A stretch of DNA of 37,486 bases. Origin: a virus. Of the stretch, positions 72 through 24,500 are shown piece after piece. Both the position numbers and the translations under genes were made by a program. Every line of letters begins with the position of its first letter. The stretch's first letter is position 1. The notes under the pieces are model-generated. The model was given only the letters and a program-made list of their open reading frames with translations. It was not told the DNA's origin and did no database searches. The DNA is taken from IMG/VR virus record IMGVR_UViG_3300037993_000061, positions 1 to 37,486 of that record, one strand, 5' to 3'.

Positions 72-635
72 TCAACTCCCAGCCTTGGCCGTTGGTGATG
101 CCGCAATTATCGCAGCGCCCGCAGTAGTTTGAGGTATGAAATCTATGATTCTCTTGGCGACGTACTCCGGCGTCAATCCGAAATGAGCGGCGGCGTCGGG
201 CAGGACGGCGATAATCTCGTTCGCGGCCGCAGCCAATTGTTCGTTCGGCACGGTCACCGTGGCGCCCTCGACTCTCACGAAGCCGTCGGCGATCAACGAT
301 CCGGCTTGGTTCTGCAGTGCGCGGACCAGCGCGTCGCGGTGGCCTTGGTCGATCGCGATCCCAGTCTTCTGCTTGAACACTGCGAACGCCCATCCGAGCA
401 CGGCCAGGATCAGCGCATTGATGGCAGCATTGACATAGGGCTCCGCGACCTCGCTGAAGGCTTGGCCGACGTTGATGACGCCGCCCTGCTTCTGCGGCAC
501 CACGAAGGTCGGCGAGCCGATCGGGCCGCCAATGGCGACGGGCGCCGGTGCCTGCGGTGTGCCGCTTGGCGTTTGTGCGGAAGCCGAGACGGTGATGGCT
601 GCGGCCAACGCAGCGGCAAGGAACAATCGCTTCAT
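72..635 (-). CDS. Holin-like membrane protein (LLH-type candidate)
   Basis: This 187-residue protein has a Sec-type N-terminal segment (residues 1-20, ending Ser-Ala-Ser-Ala before Gln) and a Pro-rich linker. A single strong membrane segment follows at about residues 66-87, then the signature Lys-Gln-Lys-Thr-Gly-Ile with His-Arg-Asp-Ala-Leu (about 88-103) and a helical C-terminus containing HFGLTPEYVAKRI. The order membrane helix, KTGI, RDAL and C-terminal helix resembles phage holins of the LLH family, which permeabilise the inner membrane to release endolysin; that family assignment is from memory. The neighbouring lysozyme and RlpA genes fit a lysis role. The start has a GGAGG site about nine bases upstream. 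The cleavable-looking leader before the main membrane helix is odd for a holin, so a membrane-anchored secreted protein is the alternative. Confidence 0.55.
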   Translation of the reverse strand: MKRLFLAAALAAAITVSASAQTPSGTPQAPAPVAIGGPIGSPTFVVPQKQGGVINVGQAFSEVAEPYVNAAINALILAVLGWAFAVFKQKTGIAIDQGHRDALVRALQNQAGSLIADGFVRVEGATVTVPNEQLAAAANEIIAVLPDAAAHFGLTPEYVAKRIIDFIPQTTAGAAIIAASPTAKAGS

Positions 636-650
636 GGAAAGCCTCCCTCC

Positions 651-685
651 AAAGAAAAAGGGCCATCCAGATTCGGGTGGCCCTT
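651..685 (-). terminator. Intrinsic terminator between the outer-membrane protein and holin genes
   Basis: In the minus-strand RNA an AAGGGCCA stem (with one internal mismatch and two further pairs) closes a six-base loop at 658-685. The U-rich tract UUUUUCUUU follows at 651-657. It lies 30 bases downstream of the outer-membrane protein stop and directly in front of the holin ribosome-binding site, so it should end most upstream transcription before the holin. Confidence 0.8.
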
Positions 686-714: not shown

Positions 715-1530
715 TTAAAGGCCGAAGAAGCTGCCCACCCCAAAATCGTAATGTAAGCCGGCGACGTACATCGTGTTGAGGTTGGCATTTGCCTGGGTGA
801 CGATCGGCGCCCCGCTGGTGCCGAACAGGTTGGCGATTGATGCCCCCTTATCCGCCCAGTAGATGTCCGCGAACACTTTGAGCGATCCGCCGTTCGGTGC
901 GCCATTGCTGCCGAGAGTCTGCCAGCGCCACCCAGCGGTCACGCCTGGGGCATAGGCCCAATCCTGGCCGCCGGACTGGCCGACGTTGCCGCTAATCAGC
1001 ATCTCCGCCTGCTTGAAGCCGACGTATCCCATAGGCGTGTTGGAAACCGCGACCGCGGAGGGAAGGAAGCTCGTCGGATTGGCGAAAGTAGGGAACGGGT
1101 TGCTGAAGCTCGGGAAGACCTTCAGCACGGTCTGGACCACGTCGATGCCGAAGTCGAACTCCTGCGTCAACACCCATCGGGCGGCGATGGTTCCCACCGC
1201 GTTGCTGCCCTCAACGTTGGTGTACTTGGCGTCGGCCTCGACTTGGCACCAAGTCTGGAGGAAGCACTTGCTCCAGATGTAGCCGACGTCGGCGTCGATG
1301 GTGCCGCCGGCGGCGTTGACGCTGCCGCCGGTGATGCCCGGCAGCGTGATGACGTTTCCGGACACGCTCGACGCGGCGATCGCGGCCGACGTGCCAATGC
1401 CAACGAAGGGACCAGAGCCGGTGATGAAGGCGTTTGTCGGCGGTGGTGGGGCTTTCTTCGGGAAGTCTGCGGCGAAAGCGGCAGTCGAGACGACTGCGGC
1501 GAGCGCGGCCAGAAGCAATCTGCTACGCAT
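715..1530 (-). CDS. Outer-membrane beta-barrel protein with signal peptide
   Basis: This 271-residue protein has a clear signal peptide (residues 1-21, cleavage after Ala-Phe-Ala) followed by Asp-Phe-Pro-Lys-Lys-Ala-Pro-Pro-Pro-Pro. That start is typical of rhizobial Omp31/Omp25-like porins. The rest alternates polar and aromatic residues as expected of transmembrane beta strands, with strand-like ends such as GYVGF, VTAGWRW and LHYDFGVGSFFGL. The last residue is Leu rather than the usual terminal Phe. The ATG is preceded by GGGGGAG. A phage carrying a host-type surface protein may use it for receptor masking or superinfection exclusion, but that is inference. It sits between the RlpA-like gene and a terminator, within the lysis region. 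Confidence 0.65.
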   Translation of the reverse strand: MRSRLLLAALAAVVSTAAFAADFPKKAPPPPTNAFITGSGPFVGIGTSAAIAASSVSGNVITLPGITGGSVNAAGGTIDADVGYIWSKCFLQTWCQVEADAKYTNVEGSNAVGTIAARWVLTQEFDFGIDVVQTVLKVFPSFSNPFPTFANPTSFLPSAVAVSNTPMGYVGFKQAEMLISGNVGQSGGQDWAYAPGVTAGWRWQTLGSNGAPNGGSLKVFADIYWADKGASIANLFGTSGAPIVTQANANLNTMYVAGLHYDFGVGSFFGL

Positions 1531-1622
1531 GTGGGTTCTCCCCCTGGTTGATTCGGATTTACAGGGGCCAGCCTATACCCAGTCTCGGCTCGGAAGCGTT
1601 ACCGCAAAGCCACAACGGCCCA

Positions 1623-1982
1623 CTATCTTCCGATCACGTCGAGGCGGACAGGTATCAGCCCAGAAAAGCCGAGGGCGCGGGCGGCGGCGGGGGTAAGGTC
1701 AATAATCCTTCGGGCCACGAACGGCCCCCTATCCACAATACGGACCACCGTGGTGCGTCCGTTGCCGCGGTTGGTCACTCGCACCATGCTGCCAAACGGG
1801 AGCGTCCTGTGGGCCGCCCAGAGGCTTGCGCAATTGAGCACGGCACCGCTCGCTGTTATGTGCCCGCACAGCCCGTCGGCACCGCCATAAATCGAGGCGA
1901 TTCCGGTCTGCTGGGCGCTCACGGAGTCGATTCCGGCGAAGAGGAGAGCGACGGACAAGGTCGCGCGGATAGATGCCGCCAT
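1623..1982 (-). CDS. RlpA-like double-psi beta-barrel lytic transglycosylase
   Basis: This 119-residue protein consists of a signal peptide (about 1-23, cleavage after Ser-Val-Ser-Ala) and a compact double-psi beta-barrel domain. Visible family signatures are AAHRTLPFGS (56-65), VTNRGNGRTT (69-78), the VDRGPF motif with its Asp at residue 84, and RRIIDLTPAAARALG (91-105). In RlpA enzymes the equivalent His and Asp are catalytic for cleaving naked peptidoglycan glycan strands. The protein is far shorter than chromosomal RlpA and lacks a SPOR domain and a clear lipobox. It starts immediately after the lysozyme stop codon (TGA-ATG), so the two are translationally linked and probably act together on the cell wall during lysis. 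Confidence 0.75.
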   Translation of the reverse strand: MAASIRATLSVALLFAGIDSVSAQQTGIASIYGGADGLCGHITASGAVLNCASLWAAHRTLPFGSMVRVTNRGNGRTTVVRIVDRGPFVARRIIDLTPAAARALGFSGLIPVRLDVIGR

Positions 1983-2696
1983 TCAGGCCGCCGCCTTCAA
2001 TCCTTGCTCGAATAAGGCGGACTCGTGGGCTCGGCGCTTCCAGAGATCGCCGCCGCGCGGCCAGATCCGTTGCATCGACAGGATCAGCGGCGGGATCGCG
2101 GAGAAGTTCTTTGCGATCATTGCCGCCTTGATCTCACGCATCTCGAGATCGCGTGGGCCGGGATCGTCGTAGCCGCCGGTGCCGCGGTTATAGGAGAGCG
2201 AAAACACCGCACCTTGGCAGTCGCTGTGGAGCAGATCGAAGTTCGGCAGCGCGGCGCGGCAGCGCGCCAGCCACTTCGGGACCTCCTTCGCCTTGAACTC
2301 GGCGATGGCTTGGTCCCAGGTGATCGTGATCTCGTTGCGGTGCGCGGCAACGTAGGCTTCCGCGGCCGCTCCGCGGTGGCCGACGGCACCGATGATCCTC
2401 TGGACCGTTGCCGGGTCAACGATTCCCGTCCAATCGGCTTCCGCCTCGGCATTGATGACATAACCGCAGTCATATCCTACGCCGAGCGTCGGGCCAGAGA
2501 CGCCTCCGGGCCAAGACCAATGCTCCTCCGCTTTGACGTAGTAGCCTGGACTCCCGTCCTCCTCGTCCTCGACGAAGGTCAATGCGTCATCGGGGATTCC
2601 CAATGGCGACAAAACTGGCAGTGGCGCCGCTACCGTTGCCACTACGGGCGATGGCGGCTGCCTGAATAAGGAAAGAAAATTCTCGATCGGGCTCAT
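1983..2696 (-). CDS. Endolysin, lysozyme/pesticin-like fold
   Basis: This 237-residue protein has a Pro-rich N-terminal stretch and then a T4-lysozyme-superfamily-like core. An acidic FVEDEEDG segment (41-48) could supply the catalytic Glu. It is followed by GPTLGVGYDCGY (68-79), which corresponds to the substrate-cleft Thr/Gly region of pesticin-type enzymes. A helical domain with YNRGTGGYDDPGPR and a C-terminal WKRRAHESALF follows. It would hydrolyse peptidoglycan at the end of infection. There is no signal peptide, so release probably needs a holin. The start has AGGGGAAGGGAAG upstream. The RlpA-like gene follows directly. The family is judged from pattern only. Confidence 0.65.
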   Translation of the reverse strand: MSPIENFLSLFRQPPSPVVATVAAPLPVLSPLGIPDDALTFVEDEEDGSPGYYVKAEEHWSWPGGVSGPTLGVGYDCGYVINAEAEADWTGIVDPATVQRIIGAVGHRGAAAEAYVAAHRNEITITWDQAIAEFKAKEVPKWLARCRAALPNFDLLHSDCQGAVFSLSYNRGTGGYDDPGPRDLEMREIKAAMIAKNFSAIPPLILSMQRIWPRGGDLWKRRAHESALFEQGLKAAA

Positions 2697-3273: not shown

Positions 3274-3546
3274 TTACTTTTTCGGCGGTCCCGCAAGCGG
3301 CAGTCCAGCACATGCGCTGATGAATGCGCGGCGCGTATTTGGATCGGAGTTGACCGCGCCGGGATGTGCTGCGGCCCATTGTTCGTGACATGCCTTGTTC
3401 TTCGCGATCTGCGCTTCATACTTCGCCTGCTGCTCTGGCGTGCGGATGATGTCGGTCGGCGTTGGATTGGTAATGTTGCCGACGTTGATCTGCGCAACAG
3501 TACAAGTAATAAAGCCGCTCATCATCATCATAAGCACGATCCGCAT
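3274..3546 (-). CDS. Small secreted protein of unknown function
   Basis: This 90-residue protein starts with a hydrophobic segment containing four consecutive Met residues (MRIVLMMMMSGFITCTVAQ), probably a signal peptide cleaved after residue 18. The mature part contains TPEQQAKYEAQIAKNKACHEQW, two to three Cys residues that could form a disulfide, and ends PLAGPPKK. Cys15 is not in a convincing lipobox. The start has GAGGGG seven bases upstream and begins 15 bases after the tail-spike stop. No family was recognised. Its pairing with the next secreted gene suggests a joint envelope function. Confidence 0.6.
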   Translation of the reverse strand: MRIVLMMMMSGFITCTVAQINVGNITNPTPTDIIRTPEQQAKYEAQIAKNKACHEQWAAAHPGAVNSDPNTRRAFISACAGLPLAGPPKK

Positions 3547-3561
3547 TTTGAACCCCTCGTC

Positions 3562-6321
3562 TTATTGATAGCGGAAGAATCCGGCAGGGCCGTCACACGA
3601 CCCGGGCATCACAATCGAGCCACCACTAGCGACTTGAGCGTGATAACCGGGTGCGCCCGAATTTGTGACGATCGCTCTCTGTCCATTTCGCGCTGCGTTG
3701 CAAACTGGTAGAGTTGCAACTGTATATGTCAGAACATTTCCGTTCACATTCGCCTGGGCACATGGCAACGGATTATTCTGATCTGTGCTAGTGTCGCCCC
3801 AAAATCCTCCAGTCGGCAATGTTCCAATATAACTGCCGCAAAAGCTAGACGCTTGAGCAGTTGTGTGATTTCGGAAAAAAAGATCACTTGATGCGCTGTC
3901 GTTTGTCCCGGCGATGTTCCAGAATTGAGAAGCCACGCTGTCATTATGGATGTTTGTTTCAGACGACGAACCAACGATCTGCACATTGCTAAACCCATAC
4001 AAAGAACCGATGACGTGTAGGTCGTATGAGCCGGTGCCGAGATAATCGCCTTGATTTATAAAAATGTTTGCGCCCAACCAAGCATAATCGCCAGCTTCGG
4101 TCACGTCGATCGAATTGCTGACTTGCTCAATATAGCCGTTGTTCAGTTCATTGGCGCTGCTATTGGCGTTGGTGAAGGTGATGCTATCGCCGGATGAGAT
4201 TGTGCTGGCGGCATCAGCCGACATCGTAACGGTCATGCCGCTGACCGAAGCAACGGAAGTTCCGCCAGTAATTGATAACGGATGCGTGTTATTGGTGACG
4301 ATCTGGCCGACCATCGCGCCGGGCGCAGTGGCGAAGTTCAGGACCGCGCTGCTGGAACTCGTTGAGGCGTTCGTGCTTGCCGTGATCGTGTTGTCCGCCG
4401 AATAGATGCCCTCAGTCGTGCAATGCTCAAGATCAAAATCTGTGATCTTGATAGCATTTGAGGCGTTGCGCAACAGCACACCATTCGCACAACCCCATGC
4501 CGTCCAGTTCGACATGCGACCAGAAAATACGTTGTCAAATAGCGTGATGTTGGCCGTATTGCTCGTTGTGCCATAGGTATTGTAATCGAAGTCGTCGAAC
4601 TCACAATGCTCTCCGGCTAGGCACATGAAAGCGAAGCCGGAACCGCCTGTGTAGGGATACCAATAACCACCACGAATGTCGCACGTCATCCGCGTGCCGC
4701 CCTCGCCGCTGCACGCGAGGCCGCCAGTCGAGCCATTGAAAAGCATCTGCACGGACTTGTCGATGTTGACACGCAGCCGGTAGTGGTTGGAGTCGGGCGC
4801 GGTAACAACGATCTGTGACTTCCACTCGCACTGGTAGCCATTGTTGGCGTCGCGCATGAAGTGGAGCACGCCAGTCGTAGCGATGGCCTCGGCAATCGCG
4901 TTGGTGAACGCCGTCGTATTATCCGTCGAGCCATCGCAGATGAAACCAAATTGTGTTGAGCGAACTTCGGTGTCGAGAGAATTAAGCACGCTGTCGGTGC
5001 CCGGCGCGGAGTAATTTAAGGCACTAAGATTTATGTTATTGGATTGCGTACTGCCGCTAATCGTCCATGGCGTATTGATCGCGCCGCCGCTCACTGATAG
5101 CCCAGTTCCAAGTGCGTAGTTTGTCAGCGTGCCCGATCCACCTGACACCGTTCCGGTGCCGAGCAAATAGTTGCTTGCCGTTGCGCTACCGACCGTCGTG
5201 ACTCCGACCGTGATGCTGGCCGACGCCGCCGAGACCGCCGTTAATTTCCCGCTGACGACGACGATCGTGGAGTTGTCTGGATAGCCACAGCCGATCTGCG
5301 ACGCGGTCATCGTGGTGCAAGAGATCACGCCAGTATTGATCGTCAGCGTGGAGCCGTCACCCTGCACGATGCCCTGCGCGGCCGAAGTGGCGATGGGAAG
5401 ATACGCGGCACCGACCGTGCCGGAATTGATCTCGGAACCCGCGATCGACTTATTAGTCAGCGATTGTATGTCGGTCGTACCAACGATTAGACCGCTCGCC
5501 GGGAAAGTCTCGGCCTGACCGCCGATCTCGAACGTGCCGATAAAGTTCGCCGTGCCGGAAACCGTTTCCCCGGCGATGGTAGGTGCGGTGGCGAGAACGA
5601 CGCTGCCGCTGCCGGTGACCGCGATCTGCGTCAGGCTCGGCCCGCTTCCCACGGCAAGAATATCGCCGGGCGTGCCGTTGATGACGCCGGTCGGAGAGCC
5701 GCCGCCGACCGTGACGTTCGCCGCCGTCGCCGTAATCGAGCAACCGGGAGACGCGACGCCGAGCGTGCATGGCACGCCGTTCACGTAGACGTAGTCGTAG
5801 GCGAGGTCGGTGTTCGTGATGAGACCGGCCGCCGAGACGGAGCCGGTGAAAGTCGGGTTGGCGATCGTCGACCCGGAAGAAAGCACCATCGCCCCAGTGC
5901 CGGTGACCGAGTTCGATAGCGTGACACCACCGTAAGTGATCGCGGCGGAGAAAGTTGCGCCGTCTGAAAACGTCTGTGATGCTGACCAACTATTCGCGTG
6001 CGACAGGTTGATGCCGAGATTGTTGCTACCGTCGACGGTGAGGCTGCTGTTGATGTTGAGCGAGAGCGTCCCGGCGCTGTAATTGAGCGGCGCGTCCGTC
6101 GCCGTGACCGATTGAACCAGTGAGTTGTTGAGATAATAACCGTCGCTCGCGTTGAACGTGCCGGCGCCGGTGTTGTTCAATGGTGCCCCGGCGTTCACGC
6201 TGCCGCCCGGATAGTAGATCAACGGCCCATTCTGAATCCAAGGCTGCGTCGGTCCTGGTCCCGGCTGCGCCGAAGCGGCGGTCGCGAGCAGAGAAAAGAT
6301 CAGCGCGAGGATCGCTCTCAT
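3562..6321 (-). CDS. Large tail spike/fibre with signal peptide and beta-helix region
   Basis: This 919-residue protein begins with a strong signal peptide (residues 1-18, cleavage after Ala-Ala-Ser-Ala). The first half (about 30-450) is Gly, Ser and Thr-rich tail-fibre repeat material, including IANPTFTGSVSAAGLI. From about residue 458 the segment FGFICDGSTDNTTAFTNAI is the usual opening of pectate-lyase-like tailspike beta-helices. A C-terminal cap with LPVCNAARNGQRAIVTNSG and a closing CDGPAGFFRYQ follows. Such proteins bind or cleave host surface glycans. The start is the ATG five bases after the preceding stop; a longer reading frame would extend into the upstream gene and hide the signal peptide. 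The 3' half (3562-4950) looks clearly more AT-rich than its surroundings, suggesting a swapped receptor-binding domain. Confidence 0.7.
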   Translation of the reverse strand: MRAILALIFSLLATAASAQPGPGPTQPWIQNGPLIYYPGGSVNAGAPLNNTGAGTFNASDGYYLNNSLVQSVTATDAPLNYSAGTLSLNINSSLTVDGSNNLGINLSHANSWSASQTFSDGATFSAAITYGGVTLSNSVTGTGAMVLSSGSTIANPTFTGSVSAAGLITNTDLAYDYVYVNGVPCTLGVASPGCSITATAANVTVGGGSPTGVINGTPGDILAVGSGPSLTQIAVTGSGSVVLATAPTIAGETVSGTANFIGTFEIGGQAETFPASGLIVGTTDIQSLTNKSIAGSEINSGTVGAAYLPIATSAAQGIVQGDGSTLTINTGVISCTTMTASQIGCGYPDNSTIVVVSGKLTAVSAASASITVGVTTVGSATASNYLLGTGTVSGGSGTLTNYALGTGLSVSGGAINTPWTISGSTQSNNINLSALNYSAPGTDSVLNSLDTEVRSTQFGFICDGSTDNTTAFTNAIAEAIATTGVLHFMRDANNGYQCEWKSQIVVTAPDSNHYRLRVNIDKSVQMLFNGSTGGLACSGEGGTRMTCDIRGGYWYPYTGGSGFAFMCLAGEHCEFDDFDYNTYGTTSNTANITLFDNVFSGRMSNWTAWGCANGVLLRNASNAIKITDFDLEHCTTEGIYSADNTITASTNASTSSSSAVLNFATAPGAMVGQIVTNNTHPLSITGGTSVASVSGMTVTMSADAASTISSGDSITFTNANSSANELNNGYIEQVSNSIDVTEAGDYAWLGANIFINQGDYLGTGSYDLHVIGSLYGFSNVQIVGSSSETNIHNDSVASQFWNIAGTNDSASSDLFFRNHTTAQASSFCGSYIGTLPTGGFWGDTSTDQNNPLPCAQANVNGNVLTYTVATLPVCNAARNGQRAIVTNSGAPGYHAQVASGGSIVMPGSCDGPAGFFRYQ

Positions 6322-6326
6322 CCGGT

Positions 6327-6614
6327 TCACCAATAGATCACAGAAAAGCCATGGCCACTGGAGGCCGCGTTGACGGTGGTTGCGGTCGTCTGGCCAGGAA
6401 TCACGGTCCAAGTCTGCCCCGGCGCGAGACCGAACGTAGTCCCGCCCGCGGCGAGTTCCGCCTCGGTGACTGGATTCACGAATAGCGTCTCCGTCGCCGT
6501 GGCCGGATTGGTGATGAATCCGCCGTTCGGATTGGCGGGAATCACTTCAACGGGATTGCCTCCCGTCGCGATCTGGGAGACGAGGCCGGGACCTGGAGTG
6601 ACGGGCGTTGTCAT
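6327..6614 (-). CDS. Small virion protein duplicating a baseplate-protein domain
   Basis: This 95-residue protein contains GGFITNPATATE, LAPGQTWTVIPGQTT and VNAASSGHGFSVI. These match in order GGIITNPASTEQ, IQPGASYFFTPDQTT and VNAATAGHRFSGF in the N-terminal 105 residues of the baseplate protein at 8333-9430. It therefore appears to be a free-standing copy of that beta domain, probably a tail-fibre adaptor or decoration. It starts one base after the tail-collar gene stop and is followed by the large spike. No enzymatic motif is seen. Confidence 0.6.
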   Translation of the reverse strand: MTTPVTPGPGLVSQIATGGNPVEVIPANPNGGFITNPATATETLFVNPVTEAELAAGGTTFGLAPGQTWTVIPGQTTATTVNAASSGHGFSVIYW

Positions 6615-6615
6615 G

Positions 6616-7671
6616 TCAGTATTTGATCGCCACGAGGATGGTATAGGTCGGCTGAACAGTCGTGACCGGCGTTCCGCTCCCGTTCGACGAGGCAGAACCT
6701 TGCGCATTGACGCTGACGTTTGTCGTCACCAGCGAGCCGTAATTACCCGCTGAACCGGTCGCCAGTCTTCCTATTATGATCTCGTCCGGGGTCACGCTAC
6801 TACTTCCACATCCGCCGGGAGTACTTAAACCAAGAAATGAATCGCATCCCGACACGTTCGTGCTGCCATTGGTGAGCGTGATCCCAGAGTTCGGGAACGA
6901 CCACGATGTCCCGAGATTCGCCTGCGCCAACGTTCGGTTCTGCGCGCCGCAGCCAACGGCGACCGCAGTCGCCGGACATCCAGAACCGGAGTTCGTCAGC
7001 ACGCCAGCCGTCTCGGAACCTTGCTGGTCGTAGGCGACGGCGGTGCGCCCGTTGGCGAAGGGCAAGGTGAAGCTCCCGGCCGAGCATGAGCTTCCCGCCT
7101 GCGTCGCCCAGAGATCGCCACTGCCGCCGTAGTAGGCGTAAAGCGCGGAATAGGTCGTCTTCAATATGCACGTCCCGTTAGCGATCAACCATCCCGCCGG
7201 AGCCGTCGGGCCGCTGAAGTGACCGACGGTTCCGACCGGGGCGTTCCCCGTCGCCGGGTTCGTCTGCACGAACTCGGTGCCGTCCCAAACGATCTCGGCG
7301 TAGGGAATCGGGGAACCAGAACCGAAGTCGCCCCCGGCGATCGGGACTAGCGCGCCACCCGAGTTCCGATAGACCGCCGCCGTTACGACGGTCGAGAAAC
7401 CATTGTGGATCGCGACTGTCGTCGCGCCAGCGACGTTGGGAGACCCCGGCACGAAGCGGATCGGAACTCCGAGCAGGTTCGACGTCGCTGTGACGTTCGG
7501 CAGCGTGAGGATGACCGCGTTCGCCGTTCCGCCGACGTTCGCGCTGGGAATCCAAGTCTGCGTCGCGCTAAGCTGCGCTTGGCTCTTGCCGACGTACTGC
7601 GAAAGAAAAGAACCAGCAACGGCCGCAGCAAGAAGTGCGATGCTCGCGAAGAACTTGCCGTTCAGCCTCAT
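6616..7671 (-). CDS. Tail-collar-domain fibre protein with hydrophobic leader
   Basis: The 351-residue protein has a phage tail-collar domain at about 146-210. Its signature is GTVGHFSGPTAPAGWLIANG, followed by YSALYAYYGGSGDLW and FTLPFANGRTAVAYDQQ. This domain occurs in distal tail fibres and microcin-like collar proteins and contributes to receptor binding. The N-terminus (MRLNGKFFASIALLAAAVAG) looks like a signal peptide or signal anchor, unusual for a cytoplasmically assembled fibre. The ATG overlaps the preceding stop as ATGA, deciding the start against a longer frame. The C-terminus is Gly, Ser and Thr-rich and ends in TYTILVAIKY, a common fibre ending. Confidence 0.75.
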   Translation of the reverse strand: MRLNGKFFASIALLAAAVAGSFLSQYVGKSQAQLSATQTWIPSANVGGTANAVILTLPNVTATSNLLGVPIRFVPGSPNVAGATTVAIHNGFSTVVTAAVYRNSGGALVPIAGGDFGSGSPIPYAEIVWDGTEFVQTNPATGNAPVGTVGHFSGPTAPAGWLIANGTCILKTTYSALYAYYGGSGDLWATQAGSSCSAGSFTLPFANGRTAVAYDQQGSETAGVLTNSGSGCPATAVAVGCGAQNRTLAQANLGTSWSFPNSGITLTNGSTNVSGCDSFLGLSTPGGCGSSSVTPDEIIIGRLATGSAGNYGSLVTTNVSVNAQGSASSNGSGTPVTTVQPTYTILVAIKY

Positions 7672-8312
7672 AGCTTTACGCTCCAAATATTGCTGCCATA
7701 ATAGACGAAGCGGGCGCATTGCCGATCGATGTTTAGTACGGCGGCAGCCTCGCCAGCGATAGTCTGTCCGGCCGGCGCGTTCACCGTTACCGGATAGTCC
7801 GAGAAGTTTCCCGCCAAGTCCTCGATGCCGTATTCCTGTCCGTCTTCCGCATTCGACGGCAGCGTCGTCGAGGAAGCCGCAACCGAAACCGTCCTGTTCA
7901 AGCCGACATGCCCGTTCGCATCCGCAGTCGTCATCGCGAAGACGCCGCTCGCCGTCACGATCCTCGACGGATAGAGCGTCGAGACTTGAAGCATCGCCTC
8001 CATCTGTCCGGCGGTAAGTAAGTTAGCGGCGAGATCGCCTGCAAGCCACGCCTGCGCCGTCGTGCCTTCCTGGCCGCGGAGGAGCGGAAGCGAAACCGAG
8101 CCAAATGTGTCACCGGAAACCGTCTGAACGTAGATGATTTCCGTCAGCAGCCCGGTCGCGGCGTCGTTCATCGTCAGCGAGAACTGCTGATTCGAACTCG
8201 GAACGGGAAAGAGCGCGCCGGTGCCGGACGCCAGCGTCAGCGTCGTCGCCGTGCTCGAGATCGGGGCGGCCAGTGTCGAGCTGGCGTCATTGCTGAAGAT
8301 AAACACGGCCAT
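7668..8312 (-). CDS. Tail-fibre proximal protein
   Basis: This 214-residue protein opens with MAVFIFSNDASSTLAAPIS and continues with a beta-rich segment containing TLTLASGTGALFP. LLRGQEGTTAQAWLAGDLAANLLTAGQME follows at about 78-105. The RGQEGTTAQAW...AGD...AG(Q/T)M pattern is a recurring fibre-base domain in phage genomes, probably the part that attaches the fibre to the baseplate. It lies between the baseplate gene and the tail-collar gene and overlaps the latter by ATGA. The C-terminal third is a small beta domain of unknown role. Confidence 0.65.
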   Translation of the reverse strand: MAVFIFSNDASSTLAAPISSTATTLTLASGTGALFPVPSSNQQFSLTMNDAATGLLTEIIYVQTVSGDTFGSVSLPLLRGQEGTTAQAWLAGDLAANLLTAGQMEAMLQVSTLYPSRIVTASGVFAMTTADANGHVGLNRTVSVAASSTTLPSNAEDGQEYGIEDLAGNFSDYPVTVNAPAGQTIAGEAAAVLNIDRQCARFVYYGSNIWSVKL

Positions 8313-8332: not shown

Positions 8333-9430
8333 TCAGATGCTTATCACGACCTGATTCTGAAATGGCAGGATCAGCACGCCCGATTCGACCGCTTCAGCCA
8401 GAACATTAGCATACATCGGTGGACTCGATCCGCTGGAGAATATCGTCCGCAGCGCGTTGAACGGCATCCTGTTGTAGCCGAAACGGTTGTAGAGCGCACC
8501 CCCAGTGATGGTCCGCGTTCCGTAAGAAAGCCGGACGGCAATGATCCCTGGTCCGTAAGTGACGCTGATCTGGTAGGTCTGATCGACGTTCGGCGCCATT
8601 CCATTAGGCCCGATCAGGAACCGCATGATCCGCCGCTTCAGCCAGCGAACATTGAAGACATTGCCGTCGCCCTTGTAGAAGTTCCAGGTCATGATCCGCT
8701 TGAAGACGTCGTCGGACGTGACCGTGATGTTCCTGGGCCCGACGAGCTTCCGGACGTTGAATCCTAGTTTATTGTAGCCCCAGGTATTCAGCGGGCCGAT
8801 ATCGAGGTTCTTCCCGGAGGAGAGCGCGGGGCGCGTCATCCCGTAGATGCCTTCCGCCACCCAATCGAGCAGCGCGCCGACGATCAATGGATTCGTGTAA
8901 ACCGGCAGCATGATCGTGGCGAAGAAGGCGACGAACTCGTTGGCGATCGAATTGAACGCCGCGACGAAGGCCTGCAAATTGTCGTCGTCCGCGTATTCTT
9001 GATAGAGGTAAGAGCCCATCCAGACGGTCTCGCCAGGGGCACCGAGCGACGTCAACGTGGTCGGCCCCGGCGGTGGGAACGTCCCGACCTGTGGCACCGG
9101 CGGATAGGGTGTCGGCGTCTGAGTGACGAAGCCGGAGAATCTATGTCCAGCCGTCGCCGCGTTGACGCTGATGCTTGTCGTCTGATCCGGCGTGAAGAAG
9201 TAGGATGCGCCGGGCTGGATCGCGATCGTCGTCTCCGTGACCGCAAGTCCTGCGGGAGCGCCGGTCGGGTCGACGTAGATGACTTCCGCCGTCCCGATTC
9301 CTTGCTGTTCCGTCGATGCCGGATTCGTGATGATGCCGCCAAGGAACGGTCCATAGGCAACCGTGACCGCCCTGCCGCCGACGGCAATAGCCGAATTTGC
9401 AAGCGGATAAAGCGATATGGGCGCCGTCAT
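8333..9430 (-). CDS. Baseplate/tail protein (tail protein I position)
   Basis: This 365-residue protein comes directly after the gpJ-like gene, the usual place of tail protein I/gp48-like components that link wedges to fibres. Residues 30-105 form a beta domain that also occurs alone in the 95-residue protein at 6327-6614. A Pro-rich linker follows (about 104-130), then a mixed domain with AFVAAFNSIANEFVAFF, FNVRWLKRRIMRFLIG and a C-terminal NRMPFNALRTIF. Exact family membership is not certain from sequence alone. The five-base junction with the preceding gene supports co-translation. Confidence 0.55.
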   Translation of the reverse strand: MTAPISLYPLANSAIAVGGRAVTVAYGPFLGGIITNPASTEQQGIGTAEVIYVDPTGAPAGLAVTETTIAIQPGASYFFTPDQTTSISVNAATAGHRFSGFVTQTPTPYPPVPQVGTFPPPGPTTLTSLGAPGETVWMGSYLYQEYADDDNLQAFVAAFNSIANEFVAFFATIMLPVYTNPLIVGALLDWVAEGIYGMTRPALSSGKNLDIGPLNTWGYNKLGFNVRKLVGPRNITVTSDDVFKRIMTWNFYKGDGNVFNVRWLKRRIMRFLIGPNGMAPNVDQTYQISVTYGPGIIAVRLSYGTRTITGGALYNRFGYNRMPFNALRTIFSSGSSPPMYANVLAEAVESGVLILPFQNQVVISI

Positions 9431-17328: not shown

Positions 17329-18969
17329 TCACGTCGTGAAGGACGATACGCTGATGTTCACCGTGATCGATTCGAACCCGATCAGCGGCGTGTAGTCGAT
17401 CGAGATGCCATCGTAGGTCCCGGGCGCGTAGTCGTTCGGGTTCTCCGTGACGTAGCTCGCGAACGGATCGGCGTTGACCACCGTGAAGCCGTCGTAGGTC
17501 CCGTTGTCCAACGCGGCGACGAAGTCCGCGGCGTCGAGCGTCGTCATCTTTACGTTGTTGAGCACGAGTCCATCCGTGATGCCGGTATTCATCGTCGAAA
17601 CGGCGACTTGTTGCAGTGTGTTGATCCCGGCTTGATTGTAGTAGATCGGATTCTGCGGATTGTTCGCCGCCTCGATCAGCGCAGCGGTGATGTTCACCGC
17701 GAGGTTAGTCTGCACCCAATCGATCGAATACCAATAGTTGAACGGATTGCCATCGAGCGTATTGCCGCCGATCAGGATGTTCGCCGAGATTCCGCCCGCC
17801 GCGCCGGTGCCGACGAAGTTGACGTTGCCGACGTTGAGTTCTGTGAGCAACGCCGCATTGCCCTCGGTCGGAAACGGTGTCACGCCGACAAGGTAGGACA
17901 AGTTGAGCGGCGTGACTTTGTTGGTCGATGACGGCTTGTAATTCAGCGTCACGCGGAAATCGGAGGCGTGGCTGAACTCAGTCGGCGGGATGCCAGCGGA
18001 GGCGTATTGGCTCTGAACGAGCGTGCCGAGCTGCGTCTCCGCCCCGGTCGCTGCCGGGACGTTGAAGACGATCGCGTCGGTGGCGGTGCCGGGAAGCGCG
18101 AGGAACCAGCCGTTGTATGCGGCCGGAAGATTGCCGGAGAGCTGGAAATACTCACCCGGAGAGACGCCGTGGTTCGTCGTCGTCACCGCCGTCGCCGTCC
18201 CAGAAGTCTGTGTCAGTCCGGTCAGCGCGTTCGCCGGCCAGACGCCGTAAGCCGGACATTCGATCATGAGATCGACGCACTTGTCCGTGTCGGGATAAAG
18301 CTGCCAATTCTGCAGCGTCGTCGTGACGAAGAAGTAAATCTTCGACGTCGTCGCGTTGAAGTTCGCCAGGAAGGCGAGGAACGAGGCGTTGCCGTCCCAG
18401 GATCGCGGCACGAGGTACGAGTAGAACGTGTTCGGGTTCGCCGCGATCCATGTCGTCAAGAATGCGACGCCAGCACTCGGTTCCCCCGGACCCAACTCGA
18501 GGACGGTAACGCTCTGTGCGGTGCCTTGCGCGAAGAAGGTCGTCGCCATCGCGACGAGCTCGGCCTGGTTCCGCGGCGTATAGGTGATCGTTCCCGTCGC
18601 GGGCGACGTGCCGCCGTCGGAGGCCAGCTCGTAAGTGAACTGCGACACCGTCGTGGCAGTGGCAAGGACCGTGCCGTTGTAAACCGCCGGAATCGCCCCG
18701 GCGATCATGGTAAGGAATTGGTCGCCGACCGCGACGCCGTGGTTGACCGACGCCGTTGCCGTCGCGACGCCTCCTGACCACGACAGGTTGGAGATGGCTA
18801 GCGGAGCCGCCAGGATCGGCGTCAGGTCGGAAGGCTGCGTCAGGAGAGACTTCGTGCCCGGGCTCGTGTTCGTCCCGCCTTGCGAGATGAAGGCTCCGGT
18901 CTTCTGCAGCGTCGGTGGTGCCGGGGCAACGAGAACGCTTACGTTGACGGAAACTATCGGATTGCTCAT
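17329..18969 (-). CDS. Contractile tail sheath protein
   Basis: The 546-residue protein starts with a sheath-like N-terminus (VSVNVSVLVAPAPPTLQKTG). A middle region contains TFYSYLVPRSWDGNASFLAFL and IYFFVTTTLQNWQ. The C-terminal domain (about 405-546) has FNYWYSIDWVQTNLAVNITAALIEA and ends in ESITVNISVSS, the polymerising handshake region. Two extra beta domains interrupt it (about 56-130 and 250-315), each with the NHG...G...AAYNG pattern found in other virion proteins here. The sheath contracts to drive the tube through the envelope and proves a myovirus tail. AAGGAAA lies upstream of the ATG. Confidence 0.85.
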   Translation of the reverse strand: MSNPIVSVNVSVLVAPAPPTLQKTGAFISQGGTNTSPGTKSLLTQPSDLTPILAAPLAISNLSWSGGVATATASVNHGVAVGDQFLTMIAGAIPAVYNGTVLATATTVSQFTYELASDGGTSPATGTITYTPRNQAELVAMATTFFAQGTAQSVTVLELGPGEPSAGVAFLTTWIAANPNTFYSYLVPRSWDGNASFLAFLANFNATTSKIYFFVTTTLQNWQLYPDTDKCVDLMIECPAYGVWPANALTGLTQTSGTATAVTTTNHGVSPGEYFQLSGNLPAAYNGWFLALPGTATDAIVFNVPAATGAETQLGTLVQSQYASAGIPPTEFSHASDFRVTLNYKPSSTNKVTPLNLSYLVGVTPFPTEGNAALLTELNVGNVNFVGTGAAGGISANILIGGNTLDGNPFNYWYSIDWVQTNLAVNITAALIEAANNPQNPIYYNQAGINTLQQVAVSTMNTGITDGLVLNNVKMTTLDAADFVAALDNGTYDGFTVVNADPFASYVTENPNDYAPGTYDGISIDYTPLIGFESITVNISVSSFTT

Positions 18970-21579: not shown

Positions 21580-24500
21580 GACCGAGGAGCCTTTCCGATG
21601 TCGCTCGCGAATACCACGAAGGACGCGAAATCGCTGGCGACGCAAGTGTCTGGCGCCACCGGCGTGATGTTCGCTGGGTCGAGGTTGACGGCGACTTGAT
21701 AGGCCGGATCGGGCGGAACCCACCCGATCAGGACTGTGAGCGGCACGCTCGATCCTAGGAACGGCGGGTTCTGCGGCTGCGGCGCGCTGACGGGGATGGG
21801 CAACCGCAGCGGTTGATCGGGCTGGTATCCATATCCGAGCCAAGCGATCTCGATCTCCAGCGGCTCTTTTGCGCCAGCGAAGGGAAACGGACCGGATGGA
21901 ACCGCCAAGATGCGCTGCTGGATCGGTTCCGGCGCGAGCCAATTCACCAAGACTTCGACGGGAACCTTGGCTCCGACCAGCGGCGGAATGGACACCAGCA
22001 GCCCTGGCGCGGTCGCCCGTCGCGTTTGGACGTCCGGGGCTGGAACGGCCCACCAGGAAAGAACGTCTTGTCCCACGCCCACGCCACGCGGAACGAAGGC
22101 CGTCCTGGGAACGATCTTCGCGGTGATGACTTGGTCCGGCGCGAGAGCCACCCACCAAGACAGGACATCCTGACCAATGGCGGTGCCGCGCGGCAGGAAG
22201 GCCGTTTGCGGGACCACCTTGGGGATGAAGACCTGGTCAGGCGGCGGTATCTGCCACCAAGCCAGGACCGGCAGCGGTACGCTCGACCCGATCGGCGTCT
22301 TTTGCGGCGCGCTCGGCGGCGTCCGTAGCTTCGCCGTCTGCGCCGCAGGCGGCTCAATGGATTGCCACCACACCATGACAGGCGCGGGAACTTGCGACCC
22401 GAACGGTTGAACGTGAGCACTCGGCGGCGTCAGCGACGGTGCGGTCTGTGGTTGCGGTGATATTGGCGACCACAACGCTTGGATAATCTCCAACGGAGCG
22501 CGGGAACCGGGGAATGGCGGGTTCTGCGGCGTCGGGCCGTTGGGTGGCGTTAATGGTGGCGCTACGATTGGCTGCGGGTCAGGCGGCAGCCAGTTGAGTT
22601 GCACTTCGTCGGGCAATCTTGCGCCAACCAGATGGGTTGTCGGCGCTGGCCCACTCGGCTCCGTCAGCGACGCACCCACGATTGGTGCCGGATCTGGCGG
22701 TAGCCATGTCAGTAGAACCGGCAACGGCACCTGAGCGCCGCCAGCAAACGGCGGGTTTTGCGGGATCGGCGGCGGGACAGTCTGTACTCTTGCCGGCAAA
22801 GGCAAAATCGGAGGCAACCACGCCAGCAGTTCCGCCTCGCGGAAGTTCGATCCGATCAGCGGCGGGTTCTGCGGCACCGACCGCGGCGGAGAAAGCAATC
22901 GCGCCGCTTGGAACGCGGGAGCGGGCGGCAGCCACGAGGCCAAGATCTCGGTCGAGACTTTCGTCCCGATGGGCGTCGGCGGCGGTGCCGAGCGCGGCGT
23001 CAACCGTGCCCCGATTTGGAATGGCGGATCCGGCGCGATCCAGGCGTCGAGGACCGCTATCTGCGACGCTGGGGCGAGGACGTAGGCGGGCCCCCTGAGT
23101 ACGGCGGACTCTGGCAATTCCACAAAAATCGGCGGTGCATACCAAGAGAGAACTTCTAACGACACCTTGGTGCCAGGGAACGGGATCGGCACTGCCGGTC
23201 CCGGCTGCGGAGGCGTCAATCGCGCGCCAGTTTGTGGCTGCGGGGCGTGAGGCAGCCAAGCAATCTGAATCTCCACCGGAACCTTGGTCCCGGGGAACGG
23301 CGGATTTTGCACTGCGGGCCCGCTCGGCTCCGTCAGCGAAGCTCCGATTTGGAACATCGGATCGGGCGGCAACCAAGAAATCAAAACTTCGACCGGCACC
23401 TTCGCTCCGACTGGCGGCGGCGGTTGTCCCGCTGGCCCGCTCGGTGGAAGACGCGGCTGGGTTCTGATTGGTTGAGGCGGCGGCGGAATCCAGCCGACGA
23501 GAACCTCGATCGGAACCTTGGTCCCGATAACGGGCGGGTTCTGCGGAATATTGCTGCTGAGGACGCCGGAAGGCGCCAAATCAATGATGGCTGGCGGCTT
23601 CGCCCATGAGATCAAGATCGGCAACGGGACGCCGATCGACATAACGGCTGGCGGGTTTTGCGGGGCACTTACCGGCGGAGAAAGATTCCGAACCGTCTGG
23701 AAGGCCGGGTCTGGCGGTAGCCACGTTTCCAGGACCGCGCCGAATTGCTGCGATGTTGCCCCCGGGAAGGGCGGGTTCTGCGGCGTGGGTCCGCTCGGCG
23801 GTATGAGATTGCGCGCGACTTGGAACGCAAAATCGACGCTGGCCGGCGGCGTCTGCCACGAGAAGTTTTCGACCAGCGGCCTCGTGAACGGCGTCACCGG
23901 GGCTTCGATGGGAGGCGATAGCAGCCGAGTAGTTTGGAAAACCGGGTCGGTCGGAAGCCATGAAATCAGGACCGGCAACGGCACGGCGGTCCCGATCGAC
24001 TGGAACGTGGACAACGTCAGATTGGGGCCGGTTTGGAACTGAGGATCGGGCGGAATCCAGTTGATCTGGACCTCAAGCGGAACCCGCGACCCGACCGGAG
24101 TAGGCTGCGGCGCCGACCGCGGGGGCACCAACAAGCGAACGGTTTGGAACGGCGGGTCTGGCGGCAGCCAGGCGTTCTGCACCACGACTTGTTGCGATAC
24201 GAGAGGCAGCACGAAGCCCGGAGCCGCCGCCGACGGCGGCAACCCGTTGATCGGGATCGAGACGACCGTGGTCGCCGACCAAGAGTTCAATACCGACTGC
24301 GGTACTTTGGTCCCGGGAAACGGCGGGTTCTGAGCAAGAGGCGCAGAGATCGGAGGATTGAGAAGCCGCGCTGTTTGGAAGGCCGGATCGGGCGGAATCC
24401 AGGCGACTAAGACGGGCAGCGGCACGCTGCTTCCGATTACGGGCGGATTTTGCGGGGCCGAGATCGGCGGCGTCAGCAGTTCTTGGCAGTACGGCTGCTG

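Follow-up and report, generated by a model that had tools for sequence, protein, structure and literature searches.

The gene at positions 715-1530 (minus strand) of the window, a stretch of 37,486 bp that is a virus record with tail sheath and baseplate genes, very probably encodes a barrel protein of the outer membrane, as judged from a predicted structure, and is referred to below as the OMP gene. Phage-borne outer-membrane proteins encoded near tail fiber and lysis genes are a known kind. New here, by sequence comparison, is an alphaproteobacterial-type family of such proteins, which is unrelated in sequence to Lom and unnamed in the model libraries searched. By analogy with known systems, the protein might act in a late conversion of the host surface, masking the receptor, excluding superinfecting phages and sparing the progeny; this function is put forward at somewhat less than an even chance.

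In the ORF list of the window, the OMP gene occupies exactly 715-1530 on the minus strand, starts with ATG and encodes 271 amino acids. Its N-terminus is MRSRLLLAALAAVVSTAAFA followed by ADFPKKAPPPP, a canonical Sec-type signal peptide (residues 1-20; positions 1471-1530, minus strand) with a KKAPPPP stretch after it. The ORF, the signal peptide and the KKAPPPP linker are as claimed in the preliminary description; the ORF and the linker are read directly, a simple signal-peptide scan agrees with the signal peptide, and residues 2-18 form a helix in the predicted model. A Shine-Dalgarno sequence, AGGGGGAG (1538-1545, minus strand), is positioned 7 bases ahead of the ATG. Directly past the stop codon there is a terminator-like hairpin, GGGCCACCCGAATCTGGATGGCCC then TTTTTCTTT (650-685, minus strand), with a fold z-score of -3.35 and no equally stable fold among 200 shuffles. 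The hairpin, whose fold has an internal mismatch, is missing from the list made by a pattern scan, and such a scan showed no promoter specific to the OMP gene. Among 13 members of the family, the hairpin past the gene is strong in six, weaker in two, negligible in one and absent in four; a strong hairpin with a T-run follows the gene in five of the 12 members besides the window's own.

The structure predicted by AlphaFold2 with the 13-member alignment (mean pLDDT 64.6, pTM 0.61) consists of the signal helix and eight long strands; a run without an alignment was poor (pLDDT 39) and was set aside. In comparisons by VIA-align, the model matches a Legionella porin III chain (Z 13.2), the N-terminal barrel of OprF (13.0), NspA (12.6), OmpW (12.3) and OmpA (12.1), with rmsd values of 3.4-4.7 across 133-161 residues. 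The Foldseek E-values are weak, the best being 1.2e-3 in the PDB and 8.6e-5 in a viral library, the latter for a phage OmpA-domain protein. The predicted fold class is a small outer-membrane barrel with unreliable loops, and the eight-stranded barrel after a signal peptide places the model in the OmpA/OmpW/NspA/OprF class; the comparison bears on the listed families. A structure prediction showing no barrel had been named beforehand as the outcome that would speak against the assignment, and a barrel was obtained. The term "porin-like" in the preliminary description can be kept in the loose sense of a small predicted barrel. It does not extend to a large-pore porin, since the model has eight strands, and for the same reason a classical trimeric porin of 16 strands was rejected. 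Strands 4 and 5 are joined by a stretch of 38 residues (129-166) that includes conserved prolines; it is predicted to face the periplasm, where the turns of such barrels are usually short.

Single-sequence searches with the protein gave no usable match in Pfam, PHROGs, viral contigs or genome contigs. By tblastn against phages and plasmids it matched only two Rhodococcus plasmids (E 0.2 and 0.9), both judged to be chance matches; tblastn with other family members found nothing, and the best match by sequence in the PDB (E 0.0068) runs across the low-complexity N-terminus. The starting point for finding the family was the baseplate-region gene at 8333-9430, which led to 80 of 90 viral relatives; further scans followed. 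An OMP homolog was present in three loci besides the window's own among 82 loci, and four of 16 whole records scanned had it, namely G001 and G002 (43%), G008 (37%) and G007 (33%). A 13-member profile (A5) found it in 15 of 22 related records, the seven without it including several fragments. The profile detects the gene in 41 of 41 loci that had been gathered for carrying it. With six near-duplicate loci removed (L095, L100, L103, L106, L146 and L147), there are 35 distinct genes, the window's included, with a median pairwise identity of 0.30. All are in virus records, as is the window's gene itself, which bears out the earlier claim that the protein is phage-encoded. Conserved residues are retained across these divergent genes. 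The expected signal of outer-membrane barrels is a C-terminal aromatic residue, and the presence of an aromatic residue within the last three positions of 29 of the 35 members agrees with it.

No Pfam, PHROGs or NCBIfam model names the family. Searched with the 13 members, Pfam and PHROGs gave nothing below E 0.05, and the strongest NCBIfam match was that of one member to a lipoprotein model (E 0.0036). No cellular copy was found by pattern scans of a species-genome collection, which reach near relatives only, and no description of the family by a literature search in which the coverage of subscription papers was limited. A chance ORF is ruled out by the homologs, which occupy the same position in two close relatives and recur in the 13-member alignment and in all of the 41 loci. 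One 98-kb record (G021) has two different copies of the gene, at 21603-22406 (plus strand) and 59058-59852 (minus strand), and a serine recombinase as well.

The family is linked to host outer-membrane proteins by its N-terminal part. When six plasmid records, five from Hyphomicrobiales and one from Azospirillum, were searched with the profile, three had a match at E <= 1. The strongest was an "outer membrane beta-barrel protein" of Bradyrhizobium japonicum (WP_304501689; E 1.6e-11, profile positions 1-111), which is a PF13505 match too. The family profile gives this protein 56.7 bits, as compared with 4.8 for the best shuffle, and hhalign of the family against three host proteins gives 95.9% across 101 columns. 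For the mature part of the Bradyrhizobium protein, the score with the 13-member profile is 15.1 bits, none of 200 shuffles exceeding 6.7, and that with a 35-member profile is 27.1 bits (best shuffle 5.4); among the other three host proteins, the mature part of one scores 10.2 bits and those of two no higher than shuffles. By Pfam score, the family does not belong to PF13505 (OMP_b-brl), with no match at E <= 1 for the window's protein and none for the 13 members. By profile similarity to accepted members it is kin to PF13505 in the N-terminal part only. What it has in common with the Omp25/31 proteins of Hyphomicrobiales (PF13505) is the signal peptide, the AAD...KAPP linker and the first strands; in contrast to them, it has no PF13505 match, its C-terminal half is unaligned, and its gene is situated in a phage lysis region. 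The preliminary description had likened the signal peptide and the KKAPPPP segment to those of rhizobial Omp31 relatives, and this is supported in part: the likeness stands for the shared N-terminal features and does not reach the C-terminal half. The profile match to the Bradyrhizobium protein supports a host-type origin of the family. Together with the RlpA-like neighbor described below, for which the two best plasmid matches come from Methylobacterium and Pelagibacterium (many other genera match too), this link suggests that the host of the phage is probably a member of the Hyphomicrobiales. The best named matches of the tail sheath (17329-18969, minus strand) are phages of Klebsiella, Pantoea and Yersinia with identities of only 41-44%, so that the window's phage is far from recorded phages.

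On the minus strand, the order of the genes is tail fibers, two small ORFs, an endolysin-like ORF, an RlpA-like gene, the OMP gene with its terminator-like hairpin, and a gene for a protein with a signal peptide and a transmembrane segment. The RlpA-like gene (1623-1982, minus strand) encodes an RlpA/DPBB-type lytic transglycosylase (PF03330, E 1.6e-20) whose N-terminus looks exported. The endolysin-like ORF (1983-2696, minus strand) is so called from its position and from a presumed lysozyme-like motif, and has a 55% identical relative in another virus record. Pfam, PHROGs and the PDB lend no support to an endolysin and give no family match. The last protein (72-635, minus strand) matches phrog_17576, has relatives beside the OMP gene elsewhere, and is possibly a holin or another envelope protein. 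A tail fiber-like ORF (3562-6411, minus strand) matches a virion structural protein weakly in PHROGs. In a simple scan, signal peptide-like N-termini turned up in five of the eight ORFs left of 7668 and in none of the 28 others; that of the RlpA-like protein, visible by eye, was missed. They include the fiber-like ORFs at 3562-6411, where the signal peptide-like start is at an internal ATG, and at 6616-7719 (minus strand), and are also present in relatives (L094:2414-4621 and L110:431-2554), which is odd for virion proteins. None of ten fiber-like ORFs of relatives has a Pfam match.

The lysis-region setting given in the preliminary description is supported, and many relatives have a similar one. 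A supported endolysin (GH108, PG-binding or Rv2525c-like) is encoded 0.9-2.3 kb upstream of the OMP gene on the same strand in 21 of the 35 distinct loci, four of which supplied search seeds; the window, with its endolysin-like ORF, is outside the 21. In 13 loci the seeds found no upstream endolysin; one of these has only 1.3 kb of upstream sequence, and in another (L105/L106) an endolysin is encoded 4.7 kb away on the opposite strand. With seeds included in the counts, a class 3 lipase is encoded near the OMP gene in six of the 35 loci (L005:19404-20096, L097:6813-7493 and L101:5204-5914, these three with phrog_21992; also L110, L145 and L150) and a phrog_17576-type protein in eight. The lipases possibly reflect a phage attack on membrane lipids. 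In L105, a gene for a GroES-like co-chaperonin (3532-4134; PF00166) is located about 1.8 kb before the OMP gene, a setting unlike a lysis cassette. In lambda, the outer-membrane step of lysis is carried out by spanins. No Rz-family spanin was found in any of 16 records, and no lipobox ORF in any of 13 regions at two stricter settings of a scan that detected both Rz1 and Bor of lambda as controls; the loosest setting gave one doubtful ORF, in L098. The OMP protein itself has neither a lipobox nor an Rz-family match, which places it outside the spanin class.

This setting makes it conceivable, if somewhat unlikely, that the protein is an outer-membrane lysis factor. A barrel inserted late would then weaken or open the outer membrane, alone or with the RlpA-like, phrog_17576 and lipase neighbors. 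The frequent upstream endolysins, the lipases and the negative searches for spanins speak for such a role, as does the co-transfer of holin and lom reported for lambdoid phages, whose authors also suggest that Lom takes part in lysis (PMC9836094). However, spanins are diverse, and the negative searches cover the Rz-family and lipobox types. The L105/L106 gene is remote from its endolysin, 12 more loci have none upstream by the seeds, and the family is kin to ordinary outer-membrane proteins of the host. A more elaborate proposal, which must be called unlikely, is that barrels were taken from Hyphomicrobiales-type hosts and made into an outer-membrane component of lysis, which together with exported RlpA-type and lipase partners would open the envelope as the last step; it includes the notion that this would apply to phages that have no recognizable spanin.

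The comparison with a close relative, G002, bears on late surface conversion. From 8333 to 31484, 20 ORFs of the two phages encode proteins of 100% identity, and the DNA of the phages is 97.8% identical across 12.5 kb. Leftward from there, the identity is 97% for the ORF at 7668, 66% over 273 residues for that at 6616, and 89% for that at 3562, where the match covers the first 454 of 949 residues. On the lysis side, it is 66% for the RlpA-like protein, 64% for the product of 72-635 and 40% for the OMP protein, which is lower than for any other matched protein of the left block. The ORFs at 3274 and 2993 and the endolysin-like ORF at 1983 have no match in G002, nor have the six ORFs right of 32967 in the available pieces of it; no tRNA was found in four pieces of G002 that were searched. 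As the 20 ORFs are identical while the fiber at 6616 and the OMP protein have diverged and the endolysin-like ORF is unmatched, the OMP gene diverges together with the host-recognition block of tail fiber and lysis genes. This co-divergence is a point for masking of the receptor, but it is not specific to a receptor function, because the RlpA-like protein, the phrog_17576 protein and the endolysin-like ORF differ as well.

In some pairs of loci, the OMP gene appears, from nucleotide similarity, to have been exchanged alone. L105 and L102 are similar over bases 1-800 of the ORF and elsewhere have just 74-base and 233-base matches; in L110 and L111 the similarity runs from base 100 to the end, which is the mature part, with nothing besides. 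L111 resembles L097 from -143 to +413 (70%) and L110 from base 91 on (78%), and this change of partner suggests an exchange inside the gene. L097/L098 and L097/L111 share other nearby genes, so that the similarity is less cleanly bounded by the gene than in L105/L102 and L110/L111. The features of a moron are present: a strong terminator-like hairpin in six of the 13 members, absence from some, possibly fragmentary, related records, and exchange.

Several known phage proteins invite comparison. Lambda has two genes of this kind for outer-membrane proteins; in its record, lom is found between tail fiber genes, and bor beside Rz/Rz1. Lom (Ail/Lom, PF06316) resembles the OMP protein in being a phage-borne outer-membrane protein whose gene is next to the tail fiber genes in the late region, and Ail itself is a fold match to the model, though a weaker one (Z 9.2). 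There is no sequence kinship between them: the match of Lom to the family profile has an E of 15, and none of the 13 members matches PF06316. Receptor-changing phage proteins include PA-2 Lc and T5 Llp. Lc/NmpC, which likewise are phage-borne outer-membrane proteins encoded near lysis genes and tied to receptor change, are 16-stranded trimeric porins, as opposed to eight strands in the OMP model. Llp, and Cor of phi80 and N15, are lipoproteins, whereas the OMP protein is a predicted barrel; what they would have in common with it is the proposed inactivation of the receptor and superinfection exclusion. Cor is described as inactivating the FhuA receptor (PMC11436027).

By combining these observations, it is possible to describe how late surface conversion might proceed. 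The OMP gene would be a moron-type accessory gene, carried by a contractile-tailed phage whose host is probably one of the Hyphomicrobiales. Lying at the end of the lysis block, it has a ribosome site of its own and is followed by a terminator-like hairpin. Its product, a small Sec-exported eight-stranded barrel related to the Omp25/31-type (PF13505-like) proteins of the host, would be made late in infection, and the machinery of the host would insert it into the outer membrane. There, we infer, it would mask or displace the receptor of the tail fibers. Superinfection would thus be blocked, and newly released phages would not be lost by adsorbing again to the dying cell or to its debris. The predicted barrel and its matches to small outer-membrane barrels are consistent with such masking, as are the profile link to the Bradyrhizobium protein and the similarity confined to the gene in L105/L102 and L110/L111; the absence of the gene from seven of the 22 related records, several of them fragments, counts against it. 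The predicted surface loops are not hypervariable and are conserved at least as well as the strands (p 0.04 with 13 members, 0.09 with seven and 0.17 with six de-duplicated ones). This fits a conserved partner rather than an arms race at the loops and can be used by the masking and the lysis readings alike.

Alternatively, the protein might convert the fitness or surface of a lysogen (adhesion, permeability) and have no role in infection itself, as the conversion reported for lambda Lom might suggest, but this is quite improbable. The hairpin of its own in six of the 13 members, common in morons, would suit a lysogenic gene, and a serine recombinase scores over the cut-off in two of 18 virus records (G021 and G022, which share one copy). 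However, among 15 OMP-bearing records searched, 13 lack both a tyrosine integrase and a serine recombinase over the cut-off, although two weak integrase-like matches fall below it and the records may be incomplete, and the pattern scan found no close copy in species genomes. As most of the records are without these enzymes, an action in the lytic cycle is favored. It is hardly credible, in spite of the host-like N-terminus, that this is a passing host gene of no use to the phage or that the contig is contaminated with host DNA. Against both stand the 35 divergent genes in virus records, which have conserved residues and in many cases a similar neighborhood and which led to the rejection of contamination; moreover, no close copy in cellular genomes turned up in the scans.

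The family adds at least 35 distinct phage-borne predicted outer-membrane barrels that no Pfam, PHROGs or NCBIfam model searched names, and the phages that carry them probably infect Hyphomicrobiales. The window's phage and G002, with identical structural proteins and a differing fiber, lysis and OMP block, amount to a natural experiment, and the question of whether phages keep outer-membrane barrels near their lysis genes for receptor control or for lysis itself becomes testable. Phages that carry this family may remodel the outer membrane of their host during infection.
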